The notes under the pieces were generated by a model. It saw nothing but the letters and a program-made list of their open reading frames with translations, searched no databases and was not told the DNA's origin. Made by a program: the position numbers and the translations under genes. Positions 23,649 to 63,628 of a stretch of 64,000 nt of DNA are shown here, piece by piece. The DNA comes from Desulfospira joergensenii DSM 10085 (GTDB lineage: Bacteria > Desulfobacterota > Desulfobacteria > Desulfobacterales > Desulfobacteraceae), in contig NZ_ATUG01000003.1 of NCBI RefSeq assembly GCF_000420085.1, positions 186,001-250,000 on the forward strand. The letters run 5' to 3'. The stretch's first letter is position 1. Each line of letters opens with the position of its first letter.

Positions 23649-23672
23649 AATTCTGTGGAAGGTGACGGCCTT

Positions 23673-25061
23673 ATGAGTGACAAGCACAAGATACTGGTGG
23701 TGGATGACGAGCCTTCCATGAGGGAGTTCCTGGAGGTCCTCCTGTCCAAGGAAGGGTATGGTGTGGAACTGGCCAAAAACGGGAAACAGGCCCTGGGACT
23801 GATCCGGAAAAACCGGTATGACCTGGTCCTGTCCGATATCCGCCTGGGGGACATCACCGGCCTGGACGTGCTCAGGGAGGTCAAGAAAACACAGGGCGAC
23901 ACCGTGGTCATCCTGATTTCCGCCTATTCCACCACCGAGATCGCCGTGGAAGCCATGAACGAAGGGGCCTATGATTTTGTTCCCAAACCCTTTGACAACA
24001 CCGAACTCAAAGGAACAATCGCCAGGGCCCTGGAGCTGAAAACCCTGGAGCACGACAAGGAAAGGGTCAGTTCCGAACTCCGGGACTACATGTACTTTAA
24101 CCGGATCATCGGGAAAAGTCCGGGCATGCAGGCCATCTATAAAAAGATAGAACAGATCGGCCCCACCAAGACCAACGTCCTCATCACCGGGGAGAGCGGC
24201 ACGGGCAAGGAACTGATCGCCCGGGCCATCCATGAGAACTCCGACCGGAAAGACAAGCCTTTCGTGGTGGTCAACTGCGGGGGCATCCCGGACACCCTCA
24301 TGGAGAGCGAGTTTTTCGGCCATGTCAAGGGCTCCTTCACCGGGGCCATCAGCGATAAAAAGGGACTCTTTGAAGCGGCCAACCAGGGCACCATCTTTCT
24401 GGACGAGATCGGGGAACTCTCCATGATGCTCCAGGTCAAGCTGCTCCGGGCGGTCCAGGAGACCTCATTCAAGCCCGTGGGCGGAACCCAGGAGATCGAC
24501 GTGGACGTTAGGATCATCTCAGCCACCAACAAGAAGCTGGAAGAGGAGGTCATCGAAGGAAACTTCCGGGAAGACCTCTTTTTCCGCCTTAATGTCATCC
24601 CCATCAAGGTGCCCCCCTTAAAGGACCGGAAAGGGGATATTGAGATTCTGTCCAATCACTTTGCCGAAAAATACTCCAAAAAAATGGGCAAGGACATTAT
24701 CAAACTTTCCTCCTATGCCATTGATTTTTTAAACAAGTACAGTTTCCCCGGCAATGTCCGGGAACTGGAAAATCTCATCGAACGCAGTGTGGCACTCTCC
24801 TCCACCAACATCATCCTGCCCGAAAGCCTGACCATCTCCATGCACAAGAAACGCCGCTGGGTGGAGGGCATCGAAGACCGCCGCTTTGATCTGGAACAGG
24901 TGGAGCAGGGCGTGGATCTGGACGAAATCCTCTCCGCCATTGAATCGGCCTATCTTAAAAAGGCCATGGAACTGGCCCGGGGCAACAAGAGCAAGGCGGC
25001 CGAATACCTGAACCTGACCCTGCGGTCCCTGAGGTACCGGTTGGATAAGGTGGATGACTGA
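23673..25061 (+). CDS. pilR: Sigma-54-dependent response regulator, PilR type
   Basis: NtrC-family activator, 462 residues. The receiver (1-120) has Asp11-Asp12, phospho-acceptor Asp55 and Lys105. The central AAA+ domain has GESGTGKE, the sigma-54 contact loop GSFTGA, Walker B GTIFLDEIGEL and FREDLFFRLNV. A Fis-type helix-turn-helix ends the protein. The PilR call rests on the next gene being pilA behind a sigma-54 promoter. The cognate sensor type, PilS, is encoded at 58.8 kb, not next door. The ATG at 23673 has GGTGA seven bases upstream. It is 24 bases past pyrC, so it may share the pyr transcript. Confidence 0.92.
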   Translation: MSDKHKILVVDDEPSMREFLEVLLSKEGYGVELAKNGKQALGLIRKNRYDLVLSDIRLGDITGLDVLREVKKTQGDTVVILISAYSTTEIAVEAMNEGAYDFVPKPFDNTELKGTIARALELKTLEHDKERVSSELRDYMYFNRIIGKSPGMQAIYKKIEQIGPTKTNVLITGESGTGKELIARAIHENSDRKDKPFVVVNCGGIPDTLMESEFFGHVKGSFTGAISDKKGLFEAANQGTIFLDEIGELSMMLQVKLLRAVQETSFKPVGGTQEIDVDVRIISATNKKLEEEVIEGNFREDLFFRLNVIPIKVPPLKDRKGDIEILSNHFAEKYSKKMGKDIIKLSSYAIDFLNKYSFPGNVRELENLIERSVALSSTNIILPESLTISMHKKRRWVEGIEDRRFDLEQVEQGVDLDEILSAIESAYLKKAMELARGNKSKAAEYLNLTLRSLRYRLDKVDD

Positions 25062-25369: not shown

Positions 25370-25840
25370 ATGACTAAAATGTTGAAGAAAGACCAGAAGG
25401 GTTTTACCTTGATCGAACTCATGATCGTTGTGGCTATTATCGGTATTTTGGCGGCTATTGCTATTCCGAATTTCCTGCAGTATCAGTTGAAATCTAAGAC
25501 TGCTGAGGCAAAGACCAACCTGGGGGCAATTAAGACATCGCAAGAGGCTTACAGAGCTGAACAAGATGCTTACCTTCCTTGCGCCGCAAACCCCGCTGCT
25601 GCCATAACAGCAGGGAAAAGAACGTGGGATGCTGGCGGAGGTTTCGCAACTATAGGATTTGCACCCGCTGGTGATGTTTACTATCAGTATGCCGTTGCCG
25701 TAACAGCTCCCGCAGCAGCAACTCCACCTACTTTTTCAGCTACCGCAACAGGTGACTTGGATGCCGATGGTACAAATGCAGTTTTCACCATGACTGATGC
25801 TGGTGCACTTACAGGTCCTGTCCCTGCAACTGCATTCTAA
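25370..25840 (+). CDS. pilA: Type IV major pilin
   Basis: Structural pilin, 156 residues before processing. The prepilin leader is 11 residues ending in Lys-Gly, followed by [23 protein letters not shown] with Phe1 and Glu5 for PilD cleavage, N-methylation and assembly. The mature chain of about 145 residues has only one Cys, so the usual C-terminal disulfide loop is absent; the C-terminus is Ala/Thr-rich with a DLDADGTNA acidic stretch. AAGGAG lies eight bases before the ATG. Transcription should depend on RpoN and PilR. It has its own terminator, which favours high, separate expression. Confidence 0.97.
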
Positions 25841-25888
25841 ACCTTACTTTATAGTCAGTACTATCCCCAGAGAATTCTATTTCAAAAA

Positions 25889-25924
25889 AGAGAGAGGTCA
25901 AAGCTTTTGACCTCTCTCTTTTTT
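25889..25924 (+). terminator. Rho-independent terminator after pilA
   Basis: A 13-bp stem (25890-25902 with 25906-25918) is followed by six T. The left arm is preceded by A6, so the signal may work in both directions. Confidence 0.92.
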
Positions 25925-26154
25925 CATTTACAAGCCATACAAAATTTTCAATAAAAACTCATCCATGTACAAGAATTTTCCTTCACAGAAAAATTATCTC
26001 AAAAGATTTTAATTTAAGATTGGAACAACAGTATTGGATTTTGTTAATATGGTTTTTAAAAAATTGTAAGAGAGGTTTTACAAAACCTGGAAAACTCAAC
26101 AGTTAAATATTTTTGATAGTGTTTTATCTTATGGCATGTTATTGAAATCAAGCC
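25925..26154. other. AT-rich spacer, no gene seen
   Basis: Strongly AT-rich stretch between the pilA terminator and the next gene. No open frame of useful length and no clear -35/-10 pair. It probably holds the promoter of the following gene. Confidence 0.5.
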
Positions 26155-27048
26155 ATGAAAAAAATAGCCTTTTGCATAGTGCTCATGCTTTTTTGTTTTT
26201 TTATCAGTTCAAACATCGATAAAAAATTTCAACCTGTTATTATCGAAGATTTATTTTATCTGCCATCTGGAAATTTTTTAAAAGGCGCAGCCCTTGGATT
26301 CGATGAGATATTAGCTGATTTTTTATGGATTAAAGCACTATCTTATTTTGGCGAACATGCTTCCACCGATCAAAACTATTCATGGTTGAGTCATATTTTA
26401 GATATTGTCACCACGTTAGATCCTTTTTACCAGATTCCTTACGAATTTGGTGGAGTTATTCTTACTACAGAATTGAATGATGTGGAAAAGTCGACACTTT
26501 TACTTAAAAAGGGCATGAAAAATATCTCTACATCTCATCCTAGATATTGGTATTTTCCTTTTTTTATAGCCTTCAATTACATGTATCATAAAAATGATTA
26601 TATAACTGCCGCTCATTATCTTGAACAGGCTGCAAAATTTCCTGAAAGTCCAGCTTATATTCCTTTATTGGTATCCAGGCTTTATGCCGACGCTGATTCA
26701 CCGGAGATCGCTGTGGCTTTTTTGAAAGAGATGATAAAAAGTACGGATAAACCAGAACTAAAAACCAAGCTGACACAACGGCTCAATGAAATAATTAATA
26801 CCAACAACATAAAATTCCTGGGACAGGCCGTAGATCAATTCATTTCAAAATTTTACAGGTATCCTAACAATTTAGGAGAACTTATAGAAAAAGGTATGAT
26901 TAACTCTGTGCCGTTTGATCCCAGGGGAGGCAGGTATTATATATCCCGGGAAGATCATTTAGTTCGAAATACCAAAAAGTCGAAAAACCTGAAAGTCCAC
27001 ATTGACAAATCACCAAAATCTATTCTTAATATGGTTCCGGCAGAATAA
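26155..27048 (+). CDS. Exported helical-repeat protein with pseudopilin-like C-terminus
   Basis: A 297-residue protein with an N-terminal signal or anchor helix (residues 3-18). The middle is helical and resembles tetratricopeptide repeats (PRYWYFPFFIAFNYMYHKND, then a AAHYLEQAAKFPES helix pair). The end (YPNNLGELIEKGMINSVPFDPRGG) resembles the C-terminal motif of GspG-type pseudopilins. The LPSGNFLKGAALGFDEILAD stretch recalls proteins next to pilus ABC genes in other deltaproteobacteria. Base use is far more AT-rich than in neighbours. By position it may be the third, PilG-like, member of a PilGHI system; that is inference. Confidence 0.75.
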   Translation: MKKIAFCIVLMLFCFFISSNIDKKFQPVIIEDLFYLPSGNFLKGAALGFDEILADFLWIKALSYFGEHASTDQNYSWLSHILDIVTTLDPFYQIPYEFGGVILTTELNDVEKSTLLLKKGMKNISTSHPRYWYFPFFIAFNYMYHKNDYITAAHYLEQAAKFPESPAYIPLLVSRLYADADSPEIAVAFLKEMIKSTDKPELKTKLTQRLNEIINTNNIKFLGQAVDQFISKFYRYPNNLGELIEKGMINSVPFDPRGGRYYISREDHLVRNTKKSKNLKVHIDKSPKSILNMVPAE

Positions 27049-27064
27049 AACAGGGGCTGATAAG

Positions 27065-28009
27065 GTGTTAGAGCAAACTGCAATAAAATTAAAAGGAATT
27101 CACAAAAGCTTTTCCAACGGCTGGTTAAAAAAGTCCTTGGTGATTAAAAACCTGGACTTAGAAATTAAAAACAACGAGATCTTCGGATATCTCGGAGCCA
27201 ACGGAGCGGGTAAGACCACAACCTTTAAGCTCATGCTGGGGCTGATAAAGCCGGACAAGGGGGAGATCTCTTTCTGGGGAAATCCTGTATCCGATCTAAA
27301 GACCCGGGCATTGGTGGGCTATCTGCCCGAGCATCCCTATTTTTATTCCTATCTTACCGCAAAAGAAGCCCTGGAATTTTATGCCAGTCTCTTTGACATG
27401 GACCGGGCTTTGAAAAAAAAGAGGGTAGGGGATCTGCTCGATCTTGTGGGACTGGATCATGCAAGAGGTGTCCAGCTTCGAAAGTTTTCCCGGGGTATGC
27501 TCCAGCGCATCGGCATTGCCCAGGCCATGGTCAATGATCCCAAACTCCTGATCCTGGATGAGCCCATGTCAGGCCTGGATCCCATGGGAAGAAAGGATAT
27601 GAGGGATATTATTCTCAACTGCCGGGACCAGGGAAAGACCATTATATTTTCCTCCCATATCATTGCCGATGTGGAGATGATCTGTGACCGGGCCGGGATC
27701 CTGGCCAAAGGTGAGCTTCAGCAGATCGTGGCCATGGATGATCCCGTCACTGCCGGGGAAACCTCCTGGGAGATCACTTGCCGGGGCGGGCAGCTCAATC
27801 TGTCCGGGCTGGACCGGGAAACCGATATCAAACAGGTGGTGAGGGGGAGCCGGAACATCATCTCCACCCGGGATCAGGATTTGGCCGGCCGGATCATGGA
27901 ACAGGTAAAGGAACAGGGACTCGACCTGATCTCCTTTGCTTCGGGAAGAAAGAGCATAGAGGATATTTACATTAAAAGTATAGATGATGGGGAAGACGAT
28001 CATGAATAA
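27065..28009 (+). CDS. ABC transporter ATPase (PilH-like position)
   Basis: A 314-residue ABC ATPase of the ABC-2 exporter group. It has Walker A GANGAGKTT, a modified signature FSRGMLQR, Walker B LLILDEPMSGLDP and switch His in FSSHI, then about 90 C-terminal residues of variable sequence. The GTG at 27065 is preferred because it follows the previous stop; an in-frame TTG at 27002 lies inside that gene. The order pilA - accessory gene - ATPase - permease resembles pilA/pilGHI of Myxococcus, where the transporter is needed for piliation. Substrate unknown. Confidence 0.85.
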   Translation: MLEQTAIKLKGIHKSFSNGWLKKSLVIKNLDLEIKNNEIFGYLGANGAGKTTTFKLMLGLIKPDKGEISFWGNPVSDLKTRALVGYLPEHPYFYSYLTAKEALEFYASLFDMDRALKKKRVGDLLDLVGLDHARGVQLRKFSRGMLQRIGIAQAMVNDPKLLILDEPMSGLDPMGRKDMRDIILNCRDQGKTIIFSSHIIADVEMICDRAGILAKGELQQIVAMDDPVTAGETSWEITCRGGQLNLSGLDRETDIKQVVRGSRNIISTRDQDLAGRIMEQVKEQGLDLISFASGRKSIEDIYIKSIDDGEDDHE

Positions 28010-28769
28010 GATCACGGCCATTGCATTGAATACCTTCCGGGAATCCATAAGGGACAAGATCTTTTACAGTCTGCTCTTTTTTGCCGTGATCCTGGTGATG
28101 TTCTCCACGGTCCTGGGCAAGCTGACCATTGGTGATCCCTTAAAGATCATCAAGGATTTCGGCCTGGGATCCATCTCCATTGCCGGAACCCTGATTGCCA
28201 TATTTGTGGGTATCGGTATGGTATACAAGGAGATGGAAAAAAGAACCATCTTCATCATCCTGTCCAAACCCCTGGCCCGGTGGCAGTTTCTCATGGGAAA
28301 GTACCTGGGTCTGGGTCTCACCATCCTGGTGGAGGTGGTAGTCATGTCCGTTCTTTTGTTCGGCCTTTGTTTCGCCTACGATCCCCAGATTCCCTGGAGC
28401 CTGCTCACGGCCATTATCCCCATATTTTTCGAGATCATGATCATCCTGGCCTTTGCCTTTTTCTTTTCCACCTTTGCCAGCCCCTTTTTGAGCGGGATGT
28501 TCACCCTGGGGATCTTTATCATCGGTCATTTTACCCGGGATTTGAAAAGCCTTGCCGCCGCAACCGAAGATGTTTTGTTTAAAAATTTAGCTGATGCTGC
28601 CTATTATATTCTCCCCAACCTGGAATTTTTGAATTACAAGACCCGGGTGGTCCATCATCTGGCCATCTCAGGAGAGGAAGTGCTTCTCTCCCTGGCCTAT
28701 GCCGCCTGCTATACCCTGGCCGTGCTTTTGATCAGTATGTTTATCTTTCAGGGCAGGGATATTACCTAG
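28002..28769 (+). CDS. ABC-2 type permease (PilI-like position)
   Basis: A 255-residue membrane protein with about six hydrophobic helices: near residues 20-40, 50-70, 100-125, 130-150, 155-175 and 230-250. The RESIRDKIFYSLLFF start is typical of ABC-2 permeases paired with a separate ATPase. The ATG at 28002 has GGAAG upstream and overlaps the ATPase gene by eight bases, so the two are made together. A strong terminator follows. Confidence 0.88.
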   Translation: MNKITAIALNTFRESIRDKIFYSLLFFAVILVMFSTVLGKLTIGDPLKIIKDFGLGSISIAGTLIAIFVGIGMVYKEMEKRTIFIILSKPLARWQFLMGKYLGLGLTILVEVVVMSVLLFGLCFAYDPQIPWSLLTAIIPIFFEIMIILAFAFFFSTFASPFLSGMFTLGIFIIGHFTRDLKSLAAATEDVLFKNLADAAYYILPNLEFLNYKTRVVHHLAISGEEVLLSLAYAACYTLAVLLISMFIFQGRDIT

Positions 28770-28937: not shown

Positions 28938-29342
28938 TTAATCAGAGGTGCCTAGCAGTTCCTTTCTCTTGGACAAGGGCAGGGCCTGGATGGCGTCCTT
29001 AAGGCCCTTGCCGGAGTATACGACGATCCTGTCCGCGGTCCAGAAACCGGATTCGTCCTTTTTGATCAGAAAAACACTGGCCGGTTTTCCCTGGCGGATA
29101 TAGCTTCTGCTGACCTGGATCAGTACGGGCTGGCCCTGGGCGTCCTTTTCCCCTCTGTTCTGCCAGACGGACCGGATTTCAGATACGGTGAAGTCCCCGA
29201 TCTGGGCCACATTCCCGCTGTTGGCCAGTTCATAGACGATATCCGTAACCACCCTGTAGTCAGTTGCCTCTTCAGCAGAAGAGATGCCAATGAAACAGAC
29301 CCCCAGTATGAGGCTCAGGATAATGATTGTATAGGATTTCAT
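28938..29342 (-). CDS. Small secreted protein in the pilus tip operon, function unknown
   Basis: A 134-residue protein with a signal peptide (about residues 1-23, ending ISSAEEA). The rest is soluble and mixed alpha/beta, with no Cys in the mature part and no domain I recognise. A strong site (AGGAGGAG) precedes the ATG, and the gene follows pilY1 by only 33 bases, so it is almost certainly co-expressed with the minor pilins. It may be a periplasmic or tip-associated accessory factor; that is inference from position. Confidence 0.8.
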   Translation of the reverse strand: MKSYTIIILSLILGVCFIGISSAEEATDYRVVTDIVYELANSGNVAQIGDFTVSEIRSVWQNRGEKDAQGQPVLIQVSRSYIRQGKPASVFLIKKDESGFWTADRIVVYSGKGLKDAIQALPLSKRKELLGTSD

Positions 29343-29375: not shown

Positions 29376-32300
29376 TCATTTAAAGATCTGCTGCCAGGAC
29401 CTGAGCCTTGTCCGCTGGTCCGGCAGATTGACATTGACAGGCGTGGGGGGCTGATCCGTGGTTCCCACGTAGAGAATGTCGTTGTAGATGACCAGTTCGC
29501 CGGAGGGTTTTCCCGTGCCGATATAGATCCCGGCAACACTTGCCGTATCACCGGATTCAGTCCGGACCTGTGTATCTCCCGAGTCAAACTCATCGTTTCC
29601 GTTGATATCAAAGACCTCAGGGCTCACAGCATTCCCGTTTTCCCAGTCCAGGGCAAAAAGCCAGGTATCCCCGTTGCCCTCGCAGACATCCCCGTCCGGA
29701 ACAAAGGTGGTGAAAAAGACAACTCCGCCGACTACCAAGGGCTGGGATATCACCCGCTCTGAGCCTGAATCGGCGGGAATGGCCAGGTTGAGGATCCAGG
29801 ATTTATTGTCGGCATTACATACCCCGTGGATGTCAGGGGAGGTGCAGGACAGGGTCCGGTATTTGTTTAAATCAGCATTGCCGTCACCGTCCAGATCGGC
29901 TAGGGTTCCGTCCGCGTTCAGGGCATATGCCTCTATGATGCTGGTTTTCATTTCCACAAGATCGCTTTTCTTATAGGCCGTGGCCGTGGCAGCTCCCTCA
30001 TCGAACAGCCCCAGGAAGTACTGCTGATCAACGGTGAGTTTATCCACCTGATCAATATACTTGCCGGTTCCGAAGTAGAGCCAGATATCCCCGTGGCCGG
30101 CATAGGCATATCCGGCCTTGGCCGTCACCGGCGTGGTGTGGTCCGTTGTTCCGGCATCATAGAAGAGTTCGGATACGGGCTTCTGGTTGAATCCGATTTC
30201 TTTCACCCGGTACATATTGCCGTAGAGATTGCCCATATAAATCCGGTCGGACAGGTAATCGTCATCCTGGGTGTCAATGACCAAGGGCGGCCCAGGAACG
30301 TCATTTTTCAGGGTTGTCGGGTGCAGCTTGATCTTATAGATGGGAGTATCGGAAGCATCCAGCCAGACCTGGCTCTTGTCCCAGGAATTGACCGCAAAAA
30401 GGTAGGATTCCTTGTCGGACTGGAGAAGGGGATCGTCGGAAGAACGGTATCCCGAACCGAAATAGGTGGCCCATCCGGTTCCTTTGGGATCAGAGTAAAC
30501 CCTGTCAATGGAGGGCCATGAAGTGGCCAGGCCCAGATCCGTATCTGTAAATTCCCATAGAAACTTTGATTTTACCTCCAGGGTTGTGCCCCCGGAAAGT
30601 GTTTTGGCCGGTGCATCAAAATCTTCACCATAGGTCACGTCCAGGGCGAAAAAGGCGGATCCTCCCTGTCCCAGCCCGGTGGTCAGCACGGTCCGCCAGC
30701 CGGTGGAATCCACGTAAATATCCATGGGTTCTGGAGATCCGTCCACCAGGAATTTATGGCAGTAGGAAGGGGAACACATATCATCGCTGGGATTTGTCCC
30801 GGCAAGGGCCATCTCGGTTTTCACGCTGTCCGGATAAAACCGCCATTTTTCGCTTCCGTCGGATAATTTGAAGACATGAAGAGCCCCGTCGTTGGAACCC
30901 ACATAGGCCAGCTCATCCCTGGCCCTGACGTTTTCATCGTACTTAAAGGCAAAATAGGAATCAAATTTATAGTAGTAGGGCGGCGATCCGATAATGGCCG
31001 GGGTGGAATTGATGACATCCCCCATGGCCTTGCATAAAAAATTATCCCCGGCTATGGAGGCGTCGGTATAGGCGGAGACATATCCCGTGGTCGTGGCGGT
31101 ACTGTCGTAGATAAATCCGTTGATCACTGCGGGCATGCTGGTCTTGGTTTCCCACAGATAGGTGGCTTCAAGCTCTCCTGTAAACGTATTGAATCGGGTT
31201 CCCGTGATATTCCCGGTCCAGTCGGAGGCGTCAAAGGAGGCGTTCAATAATATGGCGCCGTTGTCCACCGAGGTGGTGGGTGCGGGAGAAGAACCGTGAA
31301 AGACCTGGGCTTTTACATTGGAGACAATGGAGTTCATGGCGTCGATGAACTCCTGACGGTTCTGGGCCATGAACGGGACAGCGGTCCCGGTGGCGTCCTC
31401 ATTATGCAGATGGTAGAGCTGATCCTCGTCATCTGCCTCTCCGGCGGTCTGCATCTTTTTAACGATGCGGTCCAGCTGGTCGGCATTGGTCAGGCCGAAG
31501 CCTACGGCCACGATGCTGACGCCTTCGGTGATCAGGTCCTCCACCGCCTTATCGATCCTTGTGTTGTCCGTGGCCGTGTTTCCCAGGCCGTCGGTGACGA
31601 TCACCAGGATTCTGGGCTGGCAGGAGTATTTAAAATAGGTTTCAGTGTAGTAGCTGTCCAACCGGTTGGACTTGAAGTACTCCAGTCCGGCCCGCATGGT
31701 AGGGGCAAGGGGGGTGCATCCCGAAGGGTAACCGTCATCGGCCTTGTCCTGGAGGGCTGCCTGGTGAGCTGCATCATGCTCGTGGATCCCGATCCTGTAC
31801 TTGGTATAATAGGTCGGGGAATTGTCACTGTCCGAGTCATTGCAGGATCCGCCGGCCCAGGTGGCAAAACCCCAGGCAATGCTGCGGTCGAGAAACACTT
31901 CCTTGAGAACGTCCTCGGCAATGGCGATGCGGCTCATCTCAACCCCGCCCCCGATATCCATCTTGTCGTTCATACTTCCCGAGGTATCCAGTTGAACCAT
32001 GATGGCCGGATTGATCAGGTTTTCCGCATAAAGGGGGATTTCCCCGCAGGCCGCCGTGGAGGGCACGGATTTGACGATAAGGGTGATGGGAACTTTCAGG
32101 GGAGAGTTGTTGGCGGCTCCGGTAATGGTCAGTGTGGCCGTATAGGTCCCGGCAGACAAGGCAGAGGTGTTGAAATTGACCGTCACCGTATGGGAATCGT
32201 TCTGGGCCAGGGCCGGGACAACCGAGTCGGCAGCCACGGCCCAGGTCTCATCAATGGTGATGGTTGCGGTTGCCGGATCATCATTGTTTCCGGTGTTGGT

Positions 32301-32984
32301 GATGGTAAAGGTCTGGGCAGCGGCATTGTATCCCTTGAAACAGGTGGGCCCCAGGGAATCGGGATTGGCCGTCCAGTAGGGGCCCGGGCATCCGGTCTGG
32401 GGATCGACACTGTTACCGGTGGGCGGGTTTGCCGGGGTTTCGCTTCCCTTTGTCAGGTAAAACCCGTCTATGCTGGTATCTGCCTCCCGCATGGCGATCT
32501 TGAGGGTATGGGTGCCGGCCGTATTGATCTGGATGGTGTTGTCCGTCCCCACCTGCATGGATTTGGTCCAGATATAGGTGTTGTAAGTGCTTCCGAAATT
32601 CCAGGCCTTCCAGGCATCGTTGTCCACGGTAAAGAACATGGAGTCCTGGGATCCGGATAATGCCTTTCCCCGCATCCAGATATAATAGGTCCCGGTGGTT
32701 GAAAAGGTCACCTGATATGTTTTTACTTCCTTGCCCGGGGTGGTGGTGGCAGATCCGCCGCTTCCCGAGACCAGAACCGTGCCGCTGCCTTCGGCTGCCG
32801 TACTAAACCAGTCCCCCGCATTGGGGGTACCGTCCAGATTATAGGAACCGGAAAAATTTTCCGCTTCAATATAGGTGCCGGAAGGATCAATGGGGCATAG
32901 GGCCCGGGCCTGTTCCGGGATAAAGATTACAAGAACCAGAAAAAGAAAATAGAGAAAGGTTTGCCCTGAATTTTTTTTCGCCAT
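29376..32984 (-). CDS. pilY1: PilY1-type pilus tip adhesin with CBM6-like and VWA domains
   Basis: A 1202-residue exported protein. Order: signal peptide (1-28); a CBM6-like carbohydrate-binding module (about 35-180, opening YIEAENFSGSYNLDG); a beta-sandwich (about 205-305); a von Willebrand A domain (from about 327) with MIDAS motif DTSGS; and the C-terminal PilY beta-propeller with repeats such as YVGSNDGALHVFKLSDG and a calcium-type loop DLDGDGNADLN. PilY1 proteins sit at the pilus tip, promote assembly and act in adhesion and surface sensing. The ATG at 32984 has AGGGG seven bases upstream; the ATG at 33002 has none. Confidence 0.93.
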   Translation of the reverse strand: MAKKNSGQTFLYFLFLVLVIFIPEQARALCPIDPSGTYIEAENFSGSYNLDGTPNAGDWFSTAAEGSGTVLVSGSGGSATTTPGKEVKTYQVTFSTTGTYYIWMRGKALSGSQDSMFFTVDNDAWKAWNFGSTYNTYIWTKSMQVGTDNTIQINTAGTHTLKIAMREADTSIDGFYLTKGSETPANPPTGNSVDPQTGCPGPYWTANPDSLGPTCFKGYNAAAQTFTITNTGNNDDPATATITIDETWAVAADSVVPALAQNDSHTVTVNFNTSALSAGTYTATLTITGAANNSPLKVPITLIVKSVPSTAACGEIPLYAENLINPAIMVQLDTSGSMNDKMDIGGGVEMSRIAIAEDVLKEVFLDRSIAWGFATWAGGSCNDSDSDNSPTYYTKYRIGIHEHDAAHQAALQDKADDGYPSGCTPLAPTMRAGLEYFKSNRLDSYYTETYFKYSCQPRILVIVTDGLGNTATDNTRIDKAVEDLITEGVSIVAVGFGLTNADQLDRIVKKMQTAGEADDEDQLYHLHNEDATGTAVPFMAQNRQEFIDAMNSIVSNVKAQVFHGSSPAPTTSVDNGAILLNASFDASDWTGNITGTRFNTFTGELEATYLWETKTSMPAVINGFIYDSTATTTGYVSAYTDASIAGDNFLCKAMGDVINSTPAIIGSPPYYYKFDSYFAFKYDENVRARDELAYVGSNDGALHVFKLSDGSEKWRFYPDSVKTEMALAGTNPSDDMCSPSYCHKFLVDGSPEPMDIYVDSTGWRTVLTTGLGQGGSAFFALDVTYGEDFDAPAKTLSGGTTLEVKSKFLWEFTDTDLGLATSWPSIDRVYSDPKGTGWATYFGSGYRSSDDPLLQSDKESYLFAVNSWDKSQVWLDASDTPIYKIKLHPTTLKNDVPGPPLVIDTQDDDYLSDRIYMGNLYGNMYRVKEIGFNQKPVSELFYDAGTTDHTTPVTAKAGYAYAGHGDIWLYFGTGKYIDQVDKLTVDQQYFLGLFDEGAATATAYKKSDLVEMKTSIIEAYALNADGTLADLDGDGNADLNKYRTLSCTSPDIHGVCNADNKSWILNLAIPADSGSERVISQPLVVGGVVFFTTFVPDGDVCEGNGDTWLFALDWENGNAVSPEVFDINGNDEFDSGDTQVRTESGDTASVAGIYIGTGKPSGELVIYNDILYVGTTDQPPTPVNVNLPDQRTRLRSWQQIFK

Positions 32985-33018
32985 GATGTACCCCTTTTTC
33001 ATTGTTTGGATAGGAAAA

Positions 33019-33558
33019 TTAATATCCGACCCGGTAGACTTTCCTGACCCCTGTCACGACTTCGGAAGTCCCGTTGGAGTTGCATTTTACCTCGTACTGG
33101 AAATCTCGGTAACCGGCCCCGAACCCTATGGCCGGGAAATCATTCTGATAGGCCAGGCGGTACCAGTATGGAATATTTGAAATTCTGCCGTCTTCGGTAC
33201 CGGTCGAAAAGGCAGCGTTGGTGGTCTTGTCTCCCCCGTCACCGAAATTCCGGACGATGTTATAATAGATATCGTCCCAGTCATAGCTGGAATCACCTGC
33301 TTTCAAGGTGGTGTTGACAAAACTTGGGGGCGTGGCCTGGGCGTTGAGATAGGGACCGGCTTGTTTCCATCCGGAGTCGGCCGAATAAAATCGCTGATGG
33401 GCCCGGCGTTCATTCCCGGCAATTTTGAGTTCAAAACTGGTGGTGTTGATGGCGGCCAGGCCGGTGATGGTAAGAAGAGACATGATCAGCAGGGTGGAGA
33501 TGAGGGCAAAACCGGATTCGTTTTTAACGGGAGAAATTATTGTTTGAATTAATTTCAT
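33019..33558 (-). CDS. pilX: PilX-like minor pilin
   Basis: A 179-residue minor pilin. The processing site is ESG followed by FALISTLLIMSLLTITGLAAI, and position 5 is not Glu, as in some PilX proteins. The following NTTSFELKIAGNERRAHQRFYSADSG is typical of the PilX N-terminal domain. The ATG at 33558 overlaps the pilV stop (TGATG). It works with PilV, PilW and FimT to prime pilus assembly and to carry PilY1 to the tip in the known systems. Confidence 0.88.
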   Translation of the reverse strand: MKLIQTIISPVKNESGFALISTLLIMSLLTITGLAAINTTSFELKIAGNERRAHQRFYSADSGWKQAGPYLNAQATPPSFVNTTLKAGDSSYDWDDIYYNIVRNFGDGGDKTTNAAFSTGTEDGRISNIPYWYRLAYQNDFPAIGFGAGYRDFQYEVKCNSNGTSEVVTGVRKVYRVGY

Positions 33559-34010
33559 CAATATAGCTCACTTTTGAGAAAATTAATGGTTAGGGTCTTG
33601 GCCTGCTGATCCTGGTAATTCACGGTAAGGCTGACCAATTTGATATTCAACTCATCTGCCTCGTCCGTGGTTCCGTCGCCGTCGTTATCTGTTCCGTCGG
33701 TATTGGTCCATTCCGCGACATTCCAGGAGATCGACGCCACGCCCGCTGGCAGCTGATAGCCGGTAAGCTCGGTTTCATCGTGGGGATTTCCGGCCGGATC
33801 CATTGTGGAATCATCGTAGTCCAGGTTCAGCAACCGTTCGAACCCGTCACCGGCAACGGAGCTGGCAACTGTCAGATTATTTGCACTGGAATTGCCCCGG
33901 GTGCTGGAAACCTGCATGGAGTTCAATGCCAGGATCCCGATGGTCAGGACCAGCATGGCCATCAGCGCCTCGATCAGGGTAAAGCCTTGATTATCTTTTA
34001 AAAGGTTCAT
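33558..34010 (-). CDS. pilV: PilV-like minor pilin
   Basis: A 150-residue minor pilin with leader MNLLKDNQG followed by FTLIEALMAMLVLTIGILAL, including Glu5. A calcium-like acidic stretch (TDGTDNDGDGTTDEADE) is in the C-terminal half. The ATG at 34010 lies two bases after the pilW stop and is preferred to an upstream in-frame start inside pilW. Confidence 0.9.
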   Translation of the reverse strand: MNLLKDNQGFTLIEALMAMLVLTIGILALNSMQVSSTRGNSSANNLTVASSVAGDGFERLLNLDYDDSTMDPAGNPHDETELTGYQLPAGVASISWNVAEWTNTDGTDNDGDGTTDEADELNIKLVSLTVNYQDQQAKTLTINFLKSELY

Positions 34011-34012
34011 GG

Positions 34013-34702
34013 TCAATTTAACCCCAGGTTGCGGCACCGGATCCGGGTGGTCAGCATCCGGCGGCGGAAATTGTCATTATACGGTCCCCAGTTCTGTCCG
34101 GATGGGGTGGTATAGGTTGTTGTATGGGTGAATTGGGGGTCCTGACGGCGGGCCCTGGCCAGGACGGTCATCTGGACGGACCGGATATCAGCGACCGTTG
34201 CGGTGATGTTCCCGGATGCATTATAATAGAGAAATTCCACTGCCTGGATACTCTCGGCAATGTCCTGGTATCCGCCGGCATTGTTTGTCTGCATGCCGAT
34301 GTCAATGGGATCGGGAACCCCGTCTCCGTCATTGTCATTATCCGGGATCCCGTCTCCGTTACTGTCTGCATCCATGGCAAATGAAAATCCGAACTCAAGG
34401 GTCTCGGGGCCGTCTACAACCCCGTCCCCGTCCATATCGGTGGTCATCTGAAACCGCCCGGGAAGAGCCCATACGATCCCGAAATTCCCGCTTCCCGTGG
34501 GATCATACCCGGCCATGCGGAGTTCCGAGGTGATGATGGATAAGGCCGCCCGGATATTCTGCTGCATCTCCGTGACCTGATCCTGGGCGTAGTAGGTCTT
34601 CTGCTGGGATGTATAGGCGGCATAGGCGCCGATCATGATAAGGCCGGCAATGACCATGGTGATCATGAGTTCAATCAGGGTAAATCCTTTATCCTTTCTC
34701 AT
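34013..34702 (-). CDS. pilW: PilW-like minor pilin with calcium-type repeats
   Basis: A 229-residue minor pilin. The leader ends DKG before [21 protein letters not shown] with Glu5. A run of acidic DxDxDG-type loops (DADSNGDGIPDNDNDGDGVPD) lies near residues 110-135, resembling thrombospondin-type-3 calcium repeats, so the fold may depend on calcium. The ATG at 34702 overlaps the preceding stop by four bases (ATGA) and has GGAGG upstream. Confidence 0.9.
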   Translation of the reverse strand: MRKDKGFTLIELMITMVIAGLIMIGAYAAYTSQQKTYYAQDQVTEMQQNIRAALSIITSELRMAGYDPTGSGNFGIVWALPGRFQMTTDMDGDGVVDGPETLEFGFSFAMDADSNGDGIPDNDNDGDGVPDPIDIGMQTNNAGGYQDIAESIQAVEFLYYNASGNITATVADIRSVQMTVLARARRQDPQFTHTTTYTTPSGQNWGPYNDNFRRRMLTTRIRCRNLGLN

Positions 34703-35307
34703 TGCCAGGCCCCTCCGTCCCATCTCCAGATTTTGACCAGTCCGCTGACCCGGGTCCCCACGGCATAGCAGATATCCTGGTTCGGGTTTTCCAGGTAAGC
34801 GTATCCGCCGTTGCCGATTCCCTTGGAATTCACAGTTAAGATATTCACCGGAGAAGAATAACTGATATTATCGGGCGGAAGCGGATCCCCGCTGCCAGGG
34901 CTGCCGGCGGTCACATTGCCGGGACCGAACCTGACCCTGTTGTTGTAGGCCGCCGCCAGGTCAACGGTCCGGAGAATGTTGTTGTCTCCGGTTCCGGTAT
35001 AATCGTTTGCCCCGTCCCAGCCATCGGCCCCGGGGTCATCACACAGGTAATACCGGTTGTTGGCCGTATCAAAGACAATGGCCGTGCTTGAATTGTTCTC
35101 CACGGCGATCATCCTGGCCTCCTGCATGGAAGAGTATAGATCCCTTGCAGCAGACTTAAGATATATATTGTCCTGCCAGGAGGAAAAATTGGCGATGGTG
35201 ACACTGGCCAGCACAACGATAATGATCAGGACAAGGACCAGTTCGATGAGGGTGAACCCGGAGTTATTTTTCATTTGCATGAATGTATTGGATTTTGTAT
35301 TCTTCAT
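34699..35307 (-). CDS. FimT/GspH-like minor pilin
   Basis: A 202-residue minor pilin, first gene of the leftward tip operon. The hydrophobic segment FTLIELVLVLIIIVVLASVTIANF, with Glu5, is followed by the AARDLYSSMQEARMIAVENNSS stretch typical of GspH/FimT. The ATG at 35307 has AGGA upstream but makes a long leader of 17 residues; the ATG at 35280 would give an 8-residue leader but no ribosome site. Both are compatible with PilD processing. Confidence 0.87.
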   Translation of the reverse strand: MKNTKSNTFMQMKNNSGFTLIELVLVLIIIVVLASVTIANFSSWQDNIYLKSAARDLYSSMQEARMIAVENNSSTAIVFDTANNRYYLCDDPGADGWDGANDYTGTGDNNILRTVDLAAAYNNRVRFGPGNVTAGSPGSGDPLPPDNISYSSPVNILTVNSKGIGNGGYAYLENPNQDICYAVGTRVSGLVKIWRWDGGAWQ

Positions 35308-35317
35308 TATATCCTGT

Positions 35318-35346
35318 ATTATCAATGCTGGCATTGGCAAAGTCAA
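35318..35346 (-). promoter_or_regulatory. Candidate sigma-70 promoter of the minor-pilin operon
   Basis: Read leftward, TTGACT (35346-35341) and GATAAT (35323-35318) are 17 bases apart. The predicted start falls near 35311, which is inside the ribosome site of the 35307 ATG. So either the downstream ATG at 35280 is used or the true start of transcription is further up. Confidence 0.45.
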
Positions 35347-57601: not shown

Positions 57602-58813
57602 ATGCCGGACATCTATCAGTGGAAAGGTAAAAACCCCAAGGGCAGAAAGGTCAAGGGGGAAATGGAGGCCGAGAATCCGGATCAGGTGGCCTCTAGTCTC
57701 GCCAGGCGTAAAATAACCCCTTCCAGGATACGGAAAAAGCCAAAAGACATTTTAGAGAACGTCGAGTTTCTCCAGCCCAAGGTCAAAGAAAAAGATGTCA
57801 TCATCTTCTGCCGGCAGTTTGCCACCATGATCGATGCGGGCCTGCCCCTGCTCCAATGCCTGGATATCCTCCAGTCCCAGCAGGAGAACCCGACTTTTAA
57901 GAAAAATCTCAAGAAAATCAAGGAGTCCGTGGAATCCGGGGAGACCTTTGCGGATTCCCTGAGGAAATTCCCCAAGGTTTTCAATGAGTTGTTCATCAAT
58001 ATGATTGCCGCCGGAGAGGCCGGGGGTATCCTGGATGTGATCCTGGGAAGGCTGTCCGCCTATATGGAAAAGATGGCCAAGCTGAAAAAACAGGTCAAGG
58101 GTGCCATGACCTACCCGGCCATTACCATTTTCGTGGCCATCATTGTCGTAACCATTATCCTGGTGTTTGTCATTCCCGTATTTGACAAGATGTTCAAGGA
58201 TATGGGATCCAGCCTGCCTACCCCCACCCTGCTTGTGGTGGCCTTGAGTGATTTTGTCGTTGCCAAGATCTGGTATATCCTCGGCGCAACCGTTGGAGCT
58301 GTGTTCTTCCTTAAACGGTTCTACAAGACAAAAAAAGGCCGGGTCATCATGGATGATCTCTTTCTCAGGATGCCCGTCATCGGAATTCTTATCAGAAAAG
58401 TGGCCGTGGCCAAGTTTACACGGACCACATCCACCATGATCTCCAGTGGGGTGTCTATCCTGGAGGCCTTGGACATTGTTGGTAAAACAGCAGGAAACAA
58501 GGTCGTTGAGTTTGCCATAAAAGACGTTAAAACCGGGATCTCCGAGGGGCGCTCCATGGCAGACCCCCTCCTGGAAAGCGGTGTCTTTCCTTCCATGGTA
58601 TGCTCCATGATTGCCGTGGGGGAATCCACCGGAGCCCTGGATGCCATGATGGAAAAGATTGCCGACTTTTATGACGAGGAGGTGGATCAGGCCGTAAAAA
58701 CCCTCACCGATATGATCGAGCCTTTCATGCTGGTGTTCCTGGGGGTTGTGGTGGGGGGGCTTGTTATTGCCATGTACCTTCCCATATTTTCCATGGCAGG
58801 TTCCGTTGGTTAA
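57602..58813 (+). CDS. pilC: Type IV pilus inner-membrane platform protein PilC
   Basis: GspF-family platform protein of 403 residues on which the PilB/PilT motors act. It has two GspF domains (about 70-195 and 270-395), three membrane helices (near 170-195, 220-240 and 375-395), and GAMTYPAITIFVAI plus the second repeat AVAKFTRTTSTMISSGVSILEAL. AGGA lies seven bases before the ATG. Its usual neighbours pilB and pilD are absent; instead a TNT fusion gene diverges and pilS follows. Confidence 0.96.
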   Translation: MPDIYQWKGKNPKGRKVKGEMEAENPDQVASSLARRKITPSRIRKKPKDILENVEFLQPKVKEKDVIIFCRQFATMIDAGLPLLQCLDILQSQQENPTFKKNLKKIKESVESGETFADSLRKFPKVFNELFINMIAAGEAGGILDVILGRLSAYMEKMAKLKKQVKGAMTYPAITIFVAIIVVTIILVFVIPVFDKMFKDMGSSLPTPTLLVVALSDFVVAKIWYILGATVGAVFFLKRFYKTKKGRVIMDDLFLRMPVIGILIRKVAVAKFTRTTSTMISSGVSILEALDIVGKTAGNKVVEFAIKDVKTGISEGRSMADPLLESGVFPSMVCSMIAVGESTGALDAMMEKIADFYDEEVDQAVKTLTDMIEPFMLVFLGVVVGGLVIAMYLPIFSMAGSVG

Positions 58814-60119
58814 CCTGGCGTCTTCTCTTCGAAAAGATTCCTATTTTTTCCGCCAGCTCAAGTGGACCATTCTGGCCAGGATTATCTTTTCAGTTATCCT
58901 GGCCTTTTCCTGTCTGATATTTACAACAGGGAAGGGCTTTTCAATGCTGCCCCAGCCCTTTATGAGCCTCTATTATCTGGCTGCTGCTTTCCTGGCATTG
59001 TCCATCGGATATGCGGTCTGGCTCAAGTGGGGCAGTCATCTTCTGCCCCTGGCCTATGTGCAGATCATATTTGACAGTTTTGCAGTAACCGCTATTATCT
59101 TTCTCACCGGCAGTTTTAACTCGGTTTTCACCTTTCTTTACCTGGTGGTCATCATCTATTCGGCCATGCTTCTTCTTCGAAAGGGCAGTCTTCTCGTTGC
59201 AACCATTGCCAGCATTCAATACGGTATTCTCATTGAACTTGAATACTACAACTTCATACCGGCCGTTTGGAACCCTTCTCCCATCAGTGAGGATCCCGCC
59301 CATGTGATTTACCGGATCATCATCACCATAACCGCATTTTTTGCCGTTGCATTTCTGAGCGGGATCCTTTCCTTTCAATTGAAAATCGCCCGCCAGGATC
59401 TCAAGATTACCCAGGAACATTTGAAGCGGGTGGAAAAAATGGAGGCCATGGATGAGATGATTTCGGGCATTGCCCATGAAATTAAAAATCCCCTGGCCTC
59501 CCTGTCCGGTTCTATCCAAATGCTCCGGGAGGACACCCGGCCCGGCACCCATGAGGACAAACTCATGCAGATCATCCTCAGGGAGACGGAAAGACTCAAA
59601 AATATCGTCAATGACATTCGCTTGTTTGCAAAACCCAACAGGGCCGGGGCCGTTCCAGTGAATATCTCCGAGGCGGTTGAAGATGTGATCGCTCTTTTTC
59701 TGAATACCCCCCAGTGGAAACAGAGAATTGAACTCAACCCCGTTCTCGGGAAAGATCTTTACATAGACATTAACCCCATCCATCTGCAGCAGATTCTGTG
59801 GAACCTGATGAAGAATGCGGCTGAAGCCATACCCGGCAGGGGGAAAATTACCATCACCCTTGAATCTCCCAGGAATCAGAGAATTTATCTGGCCATCCAG
59901 GACAATGGAAAGGGAATTGATTCCAAGACTTCCCGCCAGATATTTGATCCCTTCTTCACCACCAAAGCCGAAGGAACCGGCTTGGGGCTTTCCATCATTC
60001 ACAGACTCATCCATACCTATGGGGGAATGATCGATTTTGATTCAATTCCGGGCAAAGGAAGTGTCTTTACCATTATCTTTAAAAATGCAAAATCACCTGA
60101 TTCACCAACAAAATCTTGA
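58806..60119 (+). CDS. pilS: PilS-type sensor histidine kinase
   Basis: A 437-residue kinase. The N-terminal half has about six membrane helices and no large periplasmic loop, as in PilS. The kinase core has the phospho-His in SGIAHEIKNPLASL, N box NLMKNAAEAI, DNGKGID and FFTTKAEGTGLGLSI. The start is read as TTG at 58806, overlapping the pilC end by eight bases. Its predicted partner PilR is 34 kb away. In Pseudomonas PilS senses PilA levels in the membrane; coupling to pilC here supports a pilus role. Confidence 0.9.
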   Translation: MVNLASSLRKDSYFFRQLKWTILARIIFSVILAFSCLIFTTGKGFSMLPQPFMSLYYLAAAFLALSIGYAVWLKWGSHLLPLAYVQIIFDSFAVTAIIFLTGSFNSVFTFLYLVVIIYSAMLLLRKGSLLVATIASIQYGILIELEYYNFIPAVWNPSPISEDPAHVIYRIIITITAFFAVAFLSGILSFQLKIARQDLKITQEHLKRVEKMEAMDEMISGIAHEIKNPLASLSGSIQMLREDTRPGTHEDKLMQIILRETERLKNIVNDIRLFAKPNRAGAVPVNISEAVEDVIALFLNTPQWKQRIELNPVLGKDLYIDINPIHLQQILWNLMKNAAEAIPGRGKITITLESPRNQRIYLAIQDNGKGIDSKTSRQIFDPFFTTKAEGTGLGLSIIHRLIHTYGGMIDFDSIPGKGSVFTIIFKNAKSPDSPTKS

Positions 60120-61716: not shown

Positions 61717-62940
61717 ATGACCATTGAACTATTCATAGCCCGGAAATATCTCAAGGCCAAAAGAAAAGAAGGATTTATTTCCCTGATCACCTTCCTTTCC
61801 GTGGCCGGCGTGACCCTGGGGGTGATGGCCCTGGTCGTGGTGATTGCCGTCATGAGTGGGGCGGAAACCGAATTCAGGAAAAGAATACTGGGACTGGAGC
61901 CCCATATCCTCATCATGAATTACCAGGGCACCTTTGACAATTACCAGGGACTTCTGGACAAGTTAAAAACCAGTCCCCATATAATTGACACTTCTCCCAT
62001 CCTTTTTGGCCAGGCCATGATCCGGACAGGCCGGTCGTTTTCAGGGGTCATGGTCCGGGGAATATCGCCTGAACACGGGGCTTCCCTGATCAAAGGGTAT
62101 TCGGCGGCCCGGCTTGAAAAAGCCCTTGGACCGGATAAAACAAATGGAAATCTGCCCGGCATTATCCTTGGAAAGGAACTTGCCAATTCCGTGGGGGTCA
62201 TTGAAGGAGACAAACTCATCCTCATGTCCTCCAAGAGTTTTATTTCCCCCATCGGCCAGATCCCTTCCATGAAGCGTTTTGTCGTCAGGGGAACCTTTTC
62301 CTCGGGCATGTCCGAATATGACGGAATGCTGGCATATACCCGCCTCGACCAGGCCCAGGGCCTGGTTTCTTCCAAAGACAGGATCTCTGCCATCGGAATC
62401 TGGGTGGATGAGGTGTTCAAGGTGAAATCCATCCGGGAACAGGTTTTGAATTCCCTGGAGTATCCCTTTTATATCCGGGACTGGATGGATATCAACCACA
62501 GCCTATTCTCTGCCCTCAAGCTTGAAAAAACCGCCATGTTTATCATTTTGACCCTGATCATCCTGGTGGCCGCCTTTAATATCGCAAGCGCCCTGATCAT
62601 GATGGTCATGGACAAGACCAAGGAAATAGCCGTTTTAAAGGCCATGGGCGCCACCCGTGACATCATCCGGCGGATCTTCATGATCAAGGGGATGATCATC
62701 GGTTTTCTGGGCACGAGCCTTGGAACCGGTGCCGGGGTTCTGATCTGCTTTCTTCTGAAAAGATATGATTTTATCCGCCTGCCCCAGGCCTACCCCTTTT
62801 CAACCCTGCCCGTGGAACTGGAAGTTCCGGATGTGGTGGTGATCGCCTTGAGTTCTTTGGTGATCTGTTTTTTATCCACCTTGTATCCCTCCCATAAGGC
62901 ATCAAAAATGGATCCTGTGGAGGCCATCCGATATGGCTGA
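61717..62940 (+). CDS. lolC: Lipoprotein-releasing ABC permease (LolC/LolE type)
   Basis: A 407-residue permease that extracts outer-membrane lipoproteins and passes them to LolA. One membrane helix near the N-terminus (about 20-48) is followed by a large periplasmic domain (about 50-265) and three helices (near 270-300, 315-350, 370-392). The FtsX-like C-terminal core is clear. Only one permease gene is present, so it may form a homodimer. The next gene, lolD, overlaps by eight bases. Confidence 0.93.
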   Translation: MTIELFIARKYLKAKRKEGFISLITFLSVAGVTLGVMALVVVIAVMSGAETEFRKRILGLEPHILIMNYQGTFDNYQGLLDKLKTSPHIIDTSPILFGQAMIRTGRSFSGVMVRGISPEHGASLIKGYSAARLEKALGPDKTNGNLPGIILGKELANSVGVIEGDKLILMSSKSFISPIGQIPSMKRFVVRGTFSSGMSEYDGMLAYTRLDQAQGLVSSKDRISAIGIWVDEVFKVKSIREQVLNSLEYPFYIRDWMDINHSLFSALKLEKTAMFIILTLIILVAAFNIASALIMMVMDKTKEIAVLKAMGATRDIIRRIFMIKGMIIGFLGTSLGTGAGVLICFLLKRYDFIRLPQAYPFSTLPVELEVPDVVVIALSSLVICFLSTLYPSHKASKMDPVEAIRYG

Positions 62941-63628
62941 CACCGGTTTAAAAACCCTTATGACAATGGATGCCGTTTCAAAGGGGTTTAACGGCAAGGG
63001 AACAACCATCCACGTTCTCAAAGATGCCGACTTCAGGATAGATAGGGGAGAGACCATTGCCGTGGTGGGCGCTTCGGGAATCGGAAAATCGACCCTCTTG
63101 AATATCATCGGCACTCTGGACCGGCCGGATTCAGGCAGTGTGGCATTCCAGGGACAGGATCTTTTTTCCCTGGGGGACCCGGCCCTTGCCCAATTCAGGA
63201 ACACCAGAATCGGATTTGTGTTCCAGTTTCATTACCTGCTCCAGGGATTCACAGCTCTTGAGAATGTCATGATACCCGGATTGATCGGACGCAAATCCAA
63301 AAAAAGTATTGAAAAACAGGCCTTAAGTATGCTTGAAAGAGTAGGGCTTGGTTCAAGGCTCTTTCACCGGGTGGAAGATCTGTCCGGAGGAGAACAGCAA
63401 AGGGTTGCCATTGCCAGGGCCCTGGTCATGAAGCCCGATCTTCTTCTGGCGGATGAGCCCACCGGCAACCTGGATCAACAAAACGGCCGGGCCGTCCACG
63501 GACTCCTGGACGAACTGAACAAGGAACTCGGTATGACCATGATCGTGGTCACCCACAATATGAAGCTTGCACGGATGATGGACAGGTGTGTCACCATTGA
63601 AGATGCCAGAATTATACCCGCAGAATAA
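62933..63628 (+). CDS. lolD: Lipoprotein-releasing ABC ATPase LolD
   Basis: A 231-residue ABC ATPase of the MacB/LolD group. Walker [10 protein letters not shown], a Q-loop in [12 protein letters not shown], signature [15 protein letters not shown], Walker [13 protein letters not shown] and switch His in VVTHN are present. It overlaps the permease gene, so stoichiometric production is expected. Confidence 0.97.

Follow-up and report, generated by a model that had tools for sequence, protein, structure and literature searches.

A PilGHI-type ABC module behind pilA in Desulfospira joergensenii, with a pilin-like head predicted on PilG and a possible counterpart around Geobacter XapD

Behind the type IV pilin gene pilA of Desulfospira joergensenii DSM 10085 lie three genes predicted to encode a repeat protein, an ABC ATPase and an ABC-2 permease, and the question they raise is what an ABC system does beside a pilin gene. 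The genes are part of the window, as we call the whole 64,000-nucleotide stretch of DNA that was analysed (Table 1). A preliminary description of this DNA had given the order as pilA, repeat protein, ABC ATPase and ABC-2 permease and had likened it to pilA-pilGHI of Myxococcus; the order holds and its coordinates (25370-28769) are right. A pilH gene was reportedly first described in 1998, and PilGHI is a kind of system that is already known. What is new is the anatomy of the PilG head and the link to XapD of Geobacter, which make the function testable.

Table 1. Features of the pilA-pilGHI locus and its surroundings, in window coordinates
Feature	Coordinates	Strand	Description
pilR-type regulator	23655..25061	+	upstream of pilA; named by homology and by the pilR-pilA order in relatives, without a family search
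pilA	25370..25840	+	type IV pilin, 156 aa, prepilin motif
hairpin	25884..25924	+	perfect, 19 bp, likely terminator between pilA and pilGHI; -26.1 kcal/mol, z -7.7
pilG	26155..27048	+	297 aa, AT-rich (GC3 0.31), TPR-type protein with predicted pseudopilin-type head
pilH	27065..28009	+	ABC ATPase, 314 aa from GTG start; alternative TTG start at 27002
pilI	28002..28769	+	ABC-2 permease, 255 aa, about six membrane segments; 8-bp overlap with pilH
pilY1 and four minor-pilin genes	29376..35346	-	convergent with pilGHI
pilC (T2SSF) and pilS (6TM_PilS histidine kinase)	57602..60119	+	genes of the PilC and PilS types

The gap of 16 bp between pilG and pilH and the overlap of 8 bp between pilH and pilI make pilGHI one unit by layout. 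pilA and pilG are separated by 314 bp with the hairpin inside; a pattern scan of the window did not list the hairpin at 25884-25924, and an Rfam search gave no match. In M. xanthus a 335-aa gene, presumably pilD, stands behind pilI, whereas the window has no pilD there. A second difference is that pilA and pilGHI are described as one operon in M. xanthus (PMC3546991), whereas in the window the strong hairpin and the spacer intervene. The genome of D. joergensenii has a PilM above the family cut-off; with PilY1, the minor pilins and proteins of the PilC and PilS types also encoded, the organism has the machinery of a type IVa pilus. Between pilI and pilY1 lies an ORF of 134 aa (28938-29342, minus strand) with a signal-like start and without a Pfam match. 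Further downstream, a MacB/FtsX-type permease is followed by an ABC ATPase (61717-63628), a pair that by domain content is of the lipoprotein-release kind.

The 297-aa protein has no Pfam or NCBIfam model above threshold. Relatives were found in 25 of the 58 genomes searched nearby (its own included), and 20 of them were aligned to build a PilG profile; all genomes searched share the order or the family of D. joergensenii, and the profile holds zero myxobacterial sequences. Run against 44 loci that had been retrieved with the M. xanthus PilA query, this profile matched 28. In Myxococcus xanthus AM003, the match (E 8e-42) is the gene directly behind pilA, and an ATPase and a permease follow. 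A profile comparison with PilG, which the preliminary description had proposed as a check, thus gave a clear result, and hhalign reports a probability of 99.7%. Pairwise, the window and M. xanthus proteins share 27% identity for PilG (254 columns, C-terminus included; BLASTP E 1e-28), 36% for PilH (E 3e-65) and 29% for PilI (253 columns; E 4e-41), and the order behind pilA is identical, which bears out the Myxococcus comparison. Searches with the window PilH in two Geobacteraceae-type genomes returned the pilA-adjacent ATPase as the best match among the 12 listed for each; in G499 that ATPase scored 218 bits and the runner-up 132. Because all three proteins are homologous, the gene order is common and the best genome-wide match of PilH lies beside pilA, this is membership in PilGHI and goes beyond resemblance; the three genes almost certainly constitute an orthologous PilGHI module. 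The M. xanthus module is MXAN_5782-5780 (TC 3.A.1.144.5, a number taken from an excerpt of PMC3924187), and M. xanthus pili need PilGHI according to passages in PMC3924187 and PMC3724824.

Across 394 genomes of the phylum, the PilG profile matches 149 at E<=0.001 and 86 at E<1e-20 (hand count). The 63 genomes among the 149 whose matches have E 1e-20 or weaker (hand count) were not counted as having PilG; judged by length and by the part that matches, most of these hits seem to be TPR proteins or pseudopilins. PilM at E<1e-20 occurs in 84 of the 86 strong-PilG genomes, compared with 307 of 394 overall (Fisher 2e-8; hand counts); conversely, 223 of the 307 strong-PilM genomes are without strong PilG (hand counts). 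The surroundings were viewed at 100 loci (20 plus 80 regions), of which 98 were usable; L109 and L120 were left out because the neighbourhood analysis gave no PilG there. The order is ATPase-permease-PilG at 48 loci, PilG-ATPase-permease at 29, permease-PilG-ATPase at 11 and another one at 10. Since PilG is kept with both the ABC ATPase and the permease at 89/98 loci and a pilin lies at most three genes from the module at 75/98, the arrangement is not due to chance.

Several loci vary on this plan. At L169, L171, L179, L185 and L189, all of the myxobacterial type, PilG and the permease stand beside pilA and the ATPase lies upstream on the opposite strand. At L037 (6569-6904), a 112-codon ORF that adjoins a minor-pilin and pilY1 cluster matches only the C-terminal part of PilG; the same genome has a full PilG at L036, and the ORF appears to be a remnant of pilG. 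At L032, L034, L036, L038, L105, L113, L251 and others, a short pilin (about 70-90 aa) precedes an ORF of 107-150 aa, an arrangement like the Geobacter pilA-N/pilA-C split pilin that is also found in the family of D. joergensenii.

Within the module, pilG stands out by base composition. It has 34% GC, compared with 50% for pilH and 49% for pilI, and its GC3 is the lowest among the 42 genes measured in the window (mean 0.62, sd 0.078), with pilA next at 0.38. The GC gap between pilG and pilH is 0.155; at the 97 loci of the survey this gap averages 0.014 (sd 0.024) and never exceeds 0.109. The preliminary wording, "an AT-rich third gene", was ambiguous: an AT-rich gene is indeed present, but it is pilG, the first of the three, and pilH and pilI are normal. 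With a foreign origin of pilG in mind, we looked for a distant donor in the PilG, PilH and PilI trees and saw none, since all three trees put the window together with L030 and L031, among the loci of the PilG-ATPase-permease order.

PilG has one hydrophobic segment, at its N-terminus (residues 4-22), and no other in the whole protein; a lipobox was looked for and is absent. An AlphaFold2 model made from an alignment with 28 myxobacterial-type PilG sequences (mean pLDDT 87.7) places a membrane helix at residues 2-24, a TPR-type helical solenoid at about 39-196 and a long helix at 200-233, followed by a small two-stranded domain that extends to about residue 280 and resembles a pseudopilin-type head. 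PilG is thus predicted to be a membrane-anchored TPR arm that carries a pilin-type head. A fold search with the whole model listed only TPR-type proteins among its matches, because the solenoid part fills the list. Folded alone, the C-terminal 103 residues reach a mean pLDDT of 77, with the last residues poor. With this part, the first nine rows of a Foldseek search are pilins and pseudopilins, at weak E values of 0.45 to 4.2, and a second aligner matches the head to solved major pseudopilins: GspG of EHEC (Z 9.0, rmsd 4.3), PulG (Z 8.8, rmsd 2.2 over 86) and EpsG of V. vulnificus and V. cholerae (Z 8.4 and 8.1, rmsd 2.2), with unrelated rows at Z <=3.1. The C-terminal positions of the PilG profile also match GspG-like ORFs with a prepilin motif at 12 of 12 fetched loci, which had been chosen because the phylum search with this profile had flagged them earlier; against the sequences of solved proteins, the profile finds repeat proteins and one T2SS GspG at E 0.68. 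The earlier observation of a GspG-like C-terminal motif is in this way upheld by sequence and, in the structural comparison with pseudopilins that had been suggested as a check, by fold; M. xanthus PilG carries the same C-terminal head. We hold with high confidence that the C-terminus of PilG adopts a pilin-type head fold.

This head resembles GspG, PulG and EpsG, matching PulG from about residue 26, but unlike these pseudopilins it lacks both a prepilin leader and a hydrophobic N-terminal helix and is fused to a TPR arm. Without that helix PilG would be unable to enter a filament in the way a pilin does. The head is present at 78 of the 100 PilG loci and absent at 22, and it is consequently not required everywhere; a search near the headless PilG loci for a head encoded as a protein of its own found none. 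PilG is headed at each of the 20 loci that have a split-type short pilin nearby, and none of the 22 headless loci has a split pilin. We found no description of a pseudopilin-type head on PilG in the literature searched, which takes in a minority of subscription papers and no preprints.

The other two proteins form an ABC pair. PilH matches ABC_tran at 5e-28 and has a Walker A motif (GANGAGKT), a signature (FSRGM) and a Walker B motif (LLILDE), and PilI matches ABC2_membrane_2 at 3e-13. Among solved proteins, NosF is the best bacterial relative of PilH (E 5e-46), behind eukaryotic ABCA proteins, and NosY comes first for the PilI profile (E 2e-8), with PmtD next (0.005). The pair thus appears to be of the NosF/NosY kind, in the sense of sequence similarity and with no claim of orthology. 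NosDFY, likewise an ABC complex, acts mechanically on a partner protein in the periplasm, and the relation to NosF and NosY would point to mechanical work, not export. As in NosDFY (PDB 7o0y and related structures; maturation of nitrous-oxide reductase), the ATPase and the permease are accompanied by a third, periplasmic partner. Unlike in NosDFY, this partner is by its model a pilin-type head on a TPR arm and appears not to be a NosD, which was not among the listed matches of the PilG profile and fold searches, and substrate and pathway differ.

On these grounds we propose, with a probability of roughly 0.5, that PilGHI is an ATP-driven mechanical device for handling pilins and not a pump for a soluble substrate. 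PilH and PilI would be an engine in the inner membrane, from which PilG would extend into the periplasm. The PilG head, lacking the filament-building helix, would dock on the globular part of a membrane-held pilin, and ATP cycles could move PilG so as to hold the pilin, orient it or lift it towards the PilC/PilB platform. PilGHI would then work as NosDFY is thought to work, a parallel drawn only from the similarity of the ABC parts in sequence. To our knowledge the pilins of other bacteria do without PilGHI, which counts against pilin handling.

An alternative arises from Geobacter. In one family, a Geobacter PilA-N query has matches in 74 of 76 genomes (best identity 87%), and from this match the family (that of G199) appears to be the Geobacteraceae. 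Six of the 18 loci read (L251, L256, L257, L258, L261 and L264) have exactly the order pilA-N, pilA-C, multi-membrane protein, permease, PilG, ATPase; the remaining loci have variant orders or end early. Counted from GSU1496, the permease, PilG and ATPase correspond by position to GSU1499, GSU1500 and GSU1501, so that the module ATPase of the Geobacteraceae, five genes after pilA-N, takes the place of GSU1501/xapD. The window and the Geobacter pilA-N/pilA-C cluster thus share a permease, a PilG and an ATPase behind pilA, with the ATPase at the GSU1501 position; they differ in that Geobacter has the order permease-PilG-ATPase and a multi-membrane protein between pilA-C and the permease. By its position, XapD is quite probably PilH. 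No paper joining XapD with PilH was found in the literature that the search covered, with a minority of subscription papers and no preprints.

The literature files this Geobacter module as an EPS exporter: GSU1501 is xapD, annotated as an ABC ATP-binding protein in PMC5585712, and a passage of PMC4974642 describes xapD as the EPS exporter. According to PMC9244359, pili were difficult to see in a co-culture that contained G. sulfurreducens deleted for GSU1501. PMC4974642 also states that EPS is normal in a Geobacter pilB mutant, which has no pili, so absent pili alone cannot explain the EPS loss in xapD mutants. If the Geobacter module includes XapD, its EPS-exporter phenotype may nevertheless follow, at least partly, from lost pilus-type filaments.

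Read as the Geobacter literature reads it, PilGHI would export a polysaccharide or a lipid-linked glycan that serves the matrix or the glycosylation of pilin, and the failure of pili would be secondary. The gene neighbourhoods at first sight agree. Large multi-membrane proteins (>=400 aa, >=8 hydrophobic segments) stand near 43 of the 98 modules, and they make up 52 of 543 genes at up to three genes' distance compared with 4 of 377 at a distance of four to six (Fisher 1e-8); the same strand was required in the near count alone, a difference that would lower and not raise the enrichment. Pfam assigns PMT_2 to 14 of the 52, Wzy_C to 11, PMT to 4 and a TMEM260-like domain to 2, and glycosyltransferases also occur within the same gene run as the module. 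In a looser count (positions -4 to +5), such genes occur at 10 of 26 usable myxobacterial-type loci, and two more loci are without an anchor. However, pilA loci of PilG-less genomes have such a neighbour at 6 of 13 (a fourteenth, L232, was left out for its cut-off PilG), and because these loci show the same neighbour, the glycosylation enzymes accompany the pilin and not PilGHI. At L221, L223, L225, L228, L230 and L231, which are without PilGHI, pilA is followed by a large multi-membrane protein that is probably a pilin glycosyltransferase.

No such neighbour stands next to the M. xanthus module or beside the window module, and the window genome gave no match to PMT_2; that PilGHI occurs in both places with no glycosyltransferase-like gene beside it is counted in favour of pilin handling. 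A Wzm-type permease domain, which we take to be PF01061, is absent from PilI, where Pfam at E <=1 gives ABC2_membrane_2 and ABC2_membrane_3 only, which also speaks against a glycan exporter. Finally, a passage of PMC3724824 reports that a Walker A mutation in PilB brings EPS back in M. xanthus strains that had lost it through deletion of pilG, pilH or pilI, and because EPS is restored without PilGHI, its export in M. xanthus is independent of PilGHI. Export of a glycan is in our view unlikely, and the specific role of a glycan flippase was rejected on the control of PilG-less loci (6/13), the missing neighbour in M. xanthus and the missing PMT_2 in the window genome.

A true exporter that moves PilA across the inner membrane would fit the module's place next to pilA at 75/98 loci. 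Type IV pilins elsewhere reach the membrane by a general route for which an ABC pump is not known to be needed, and this, with the 223 of 307 strong-PilM genomes without strong PilG and the likeness of the ABC pair to NosF/NosY, stands against it. The Myxococcus literature leans the other way: PilGHI is listed as required for PilA export in an excerpt of PMC3924187 and is called essential for the translocation of pilin across the inner membrane in one of PMC3724824. On balance we regard a PilA exporter as improbable. That the head instead belongs to the structure of the pilus machine itself, for instance as a priming site beside the minor pilins, where the ABC pair would only put it in place, draws on its pseudopilin-type fold and on the minor-pilin and pilY1 genes beside the module in the window and several relatives, and is very improbable given the 22/100 loci that lack the head.

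Returning to mechanical pilin handling, we tentatively extend it beyond this locus, at somewhat less than even odds: across Desulfobacterota and Myxococcota, PilGHI would be an ATP-driven TPR arm with a decoy pilin head that feeds, orients or lifts pilins at the inner membrane, Geobacter XapD would be its PilH, and the phenotypes of xapD mutants in matrix, cytochrome anchoring and nanowires would at least partly be those of pilus assembly. The pilin-type head of PilG gives this a concrete and mutable form, namely that the head binds pilin. The shared position with GSU1501/xapD brings together two bodies of literature whose explanations of these genes are incompatible, and it bears on which Geobacter phenotypes stem from polysaccharide and which from pilus-type filaments.
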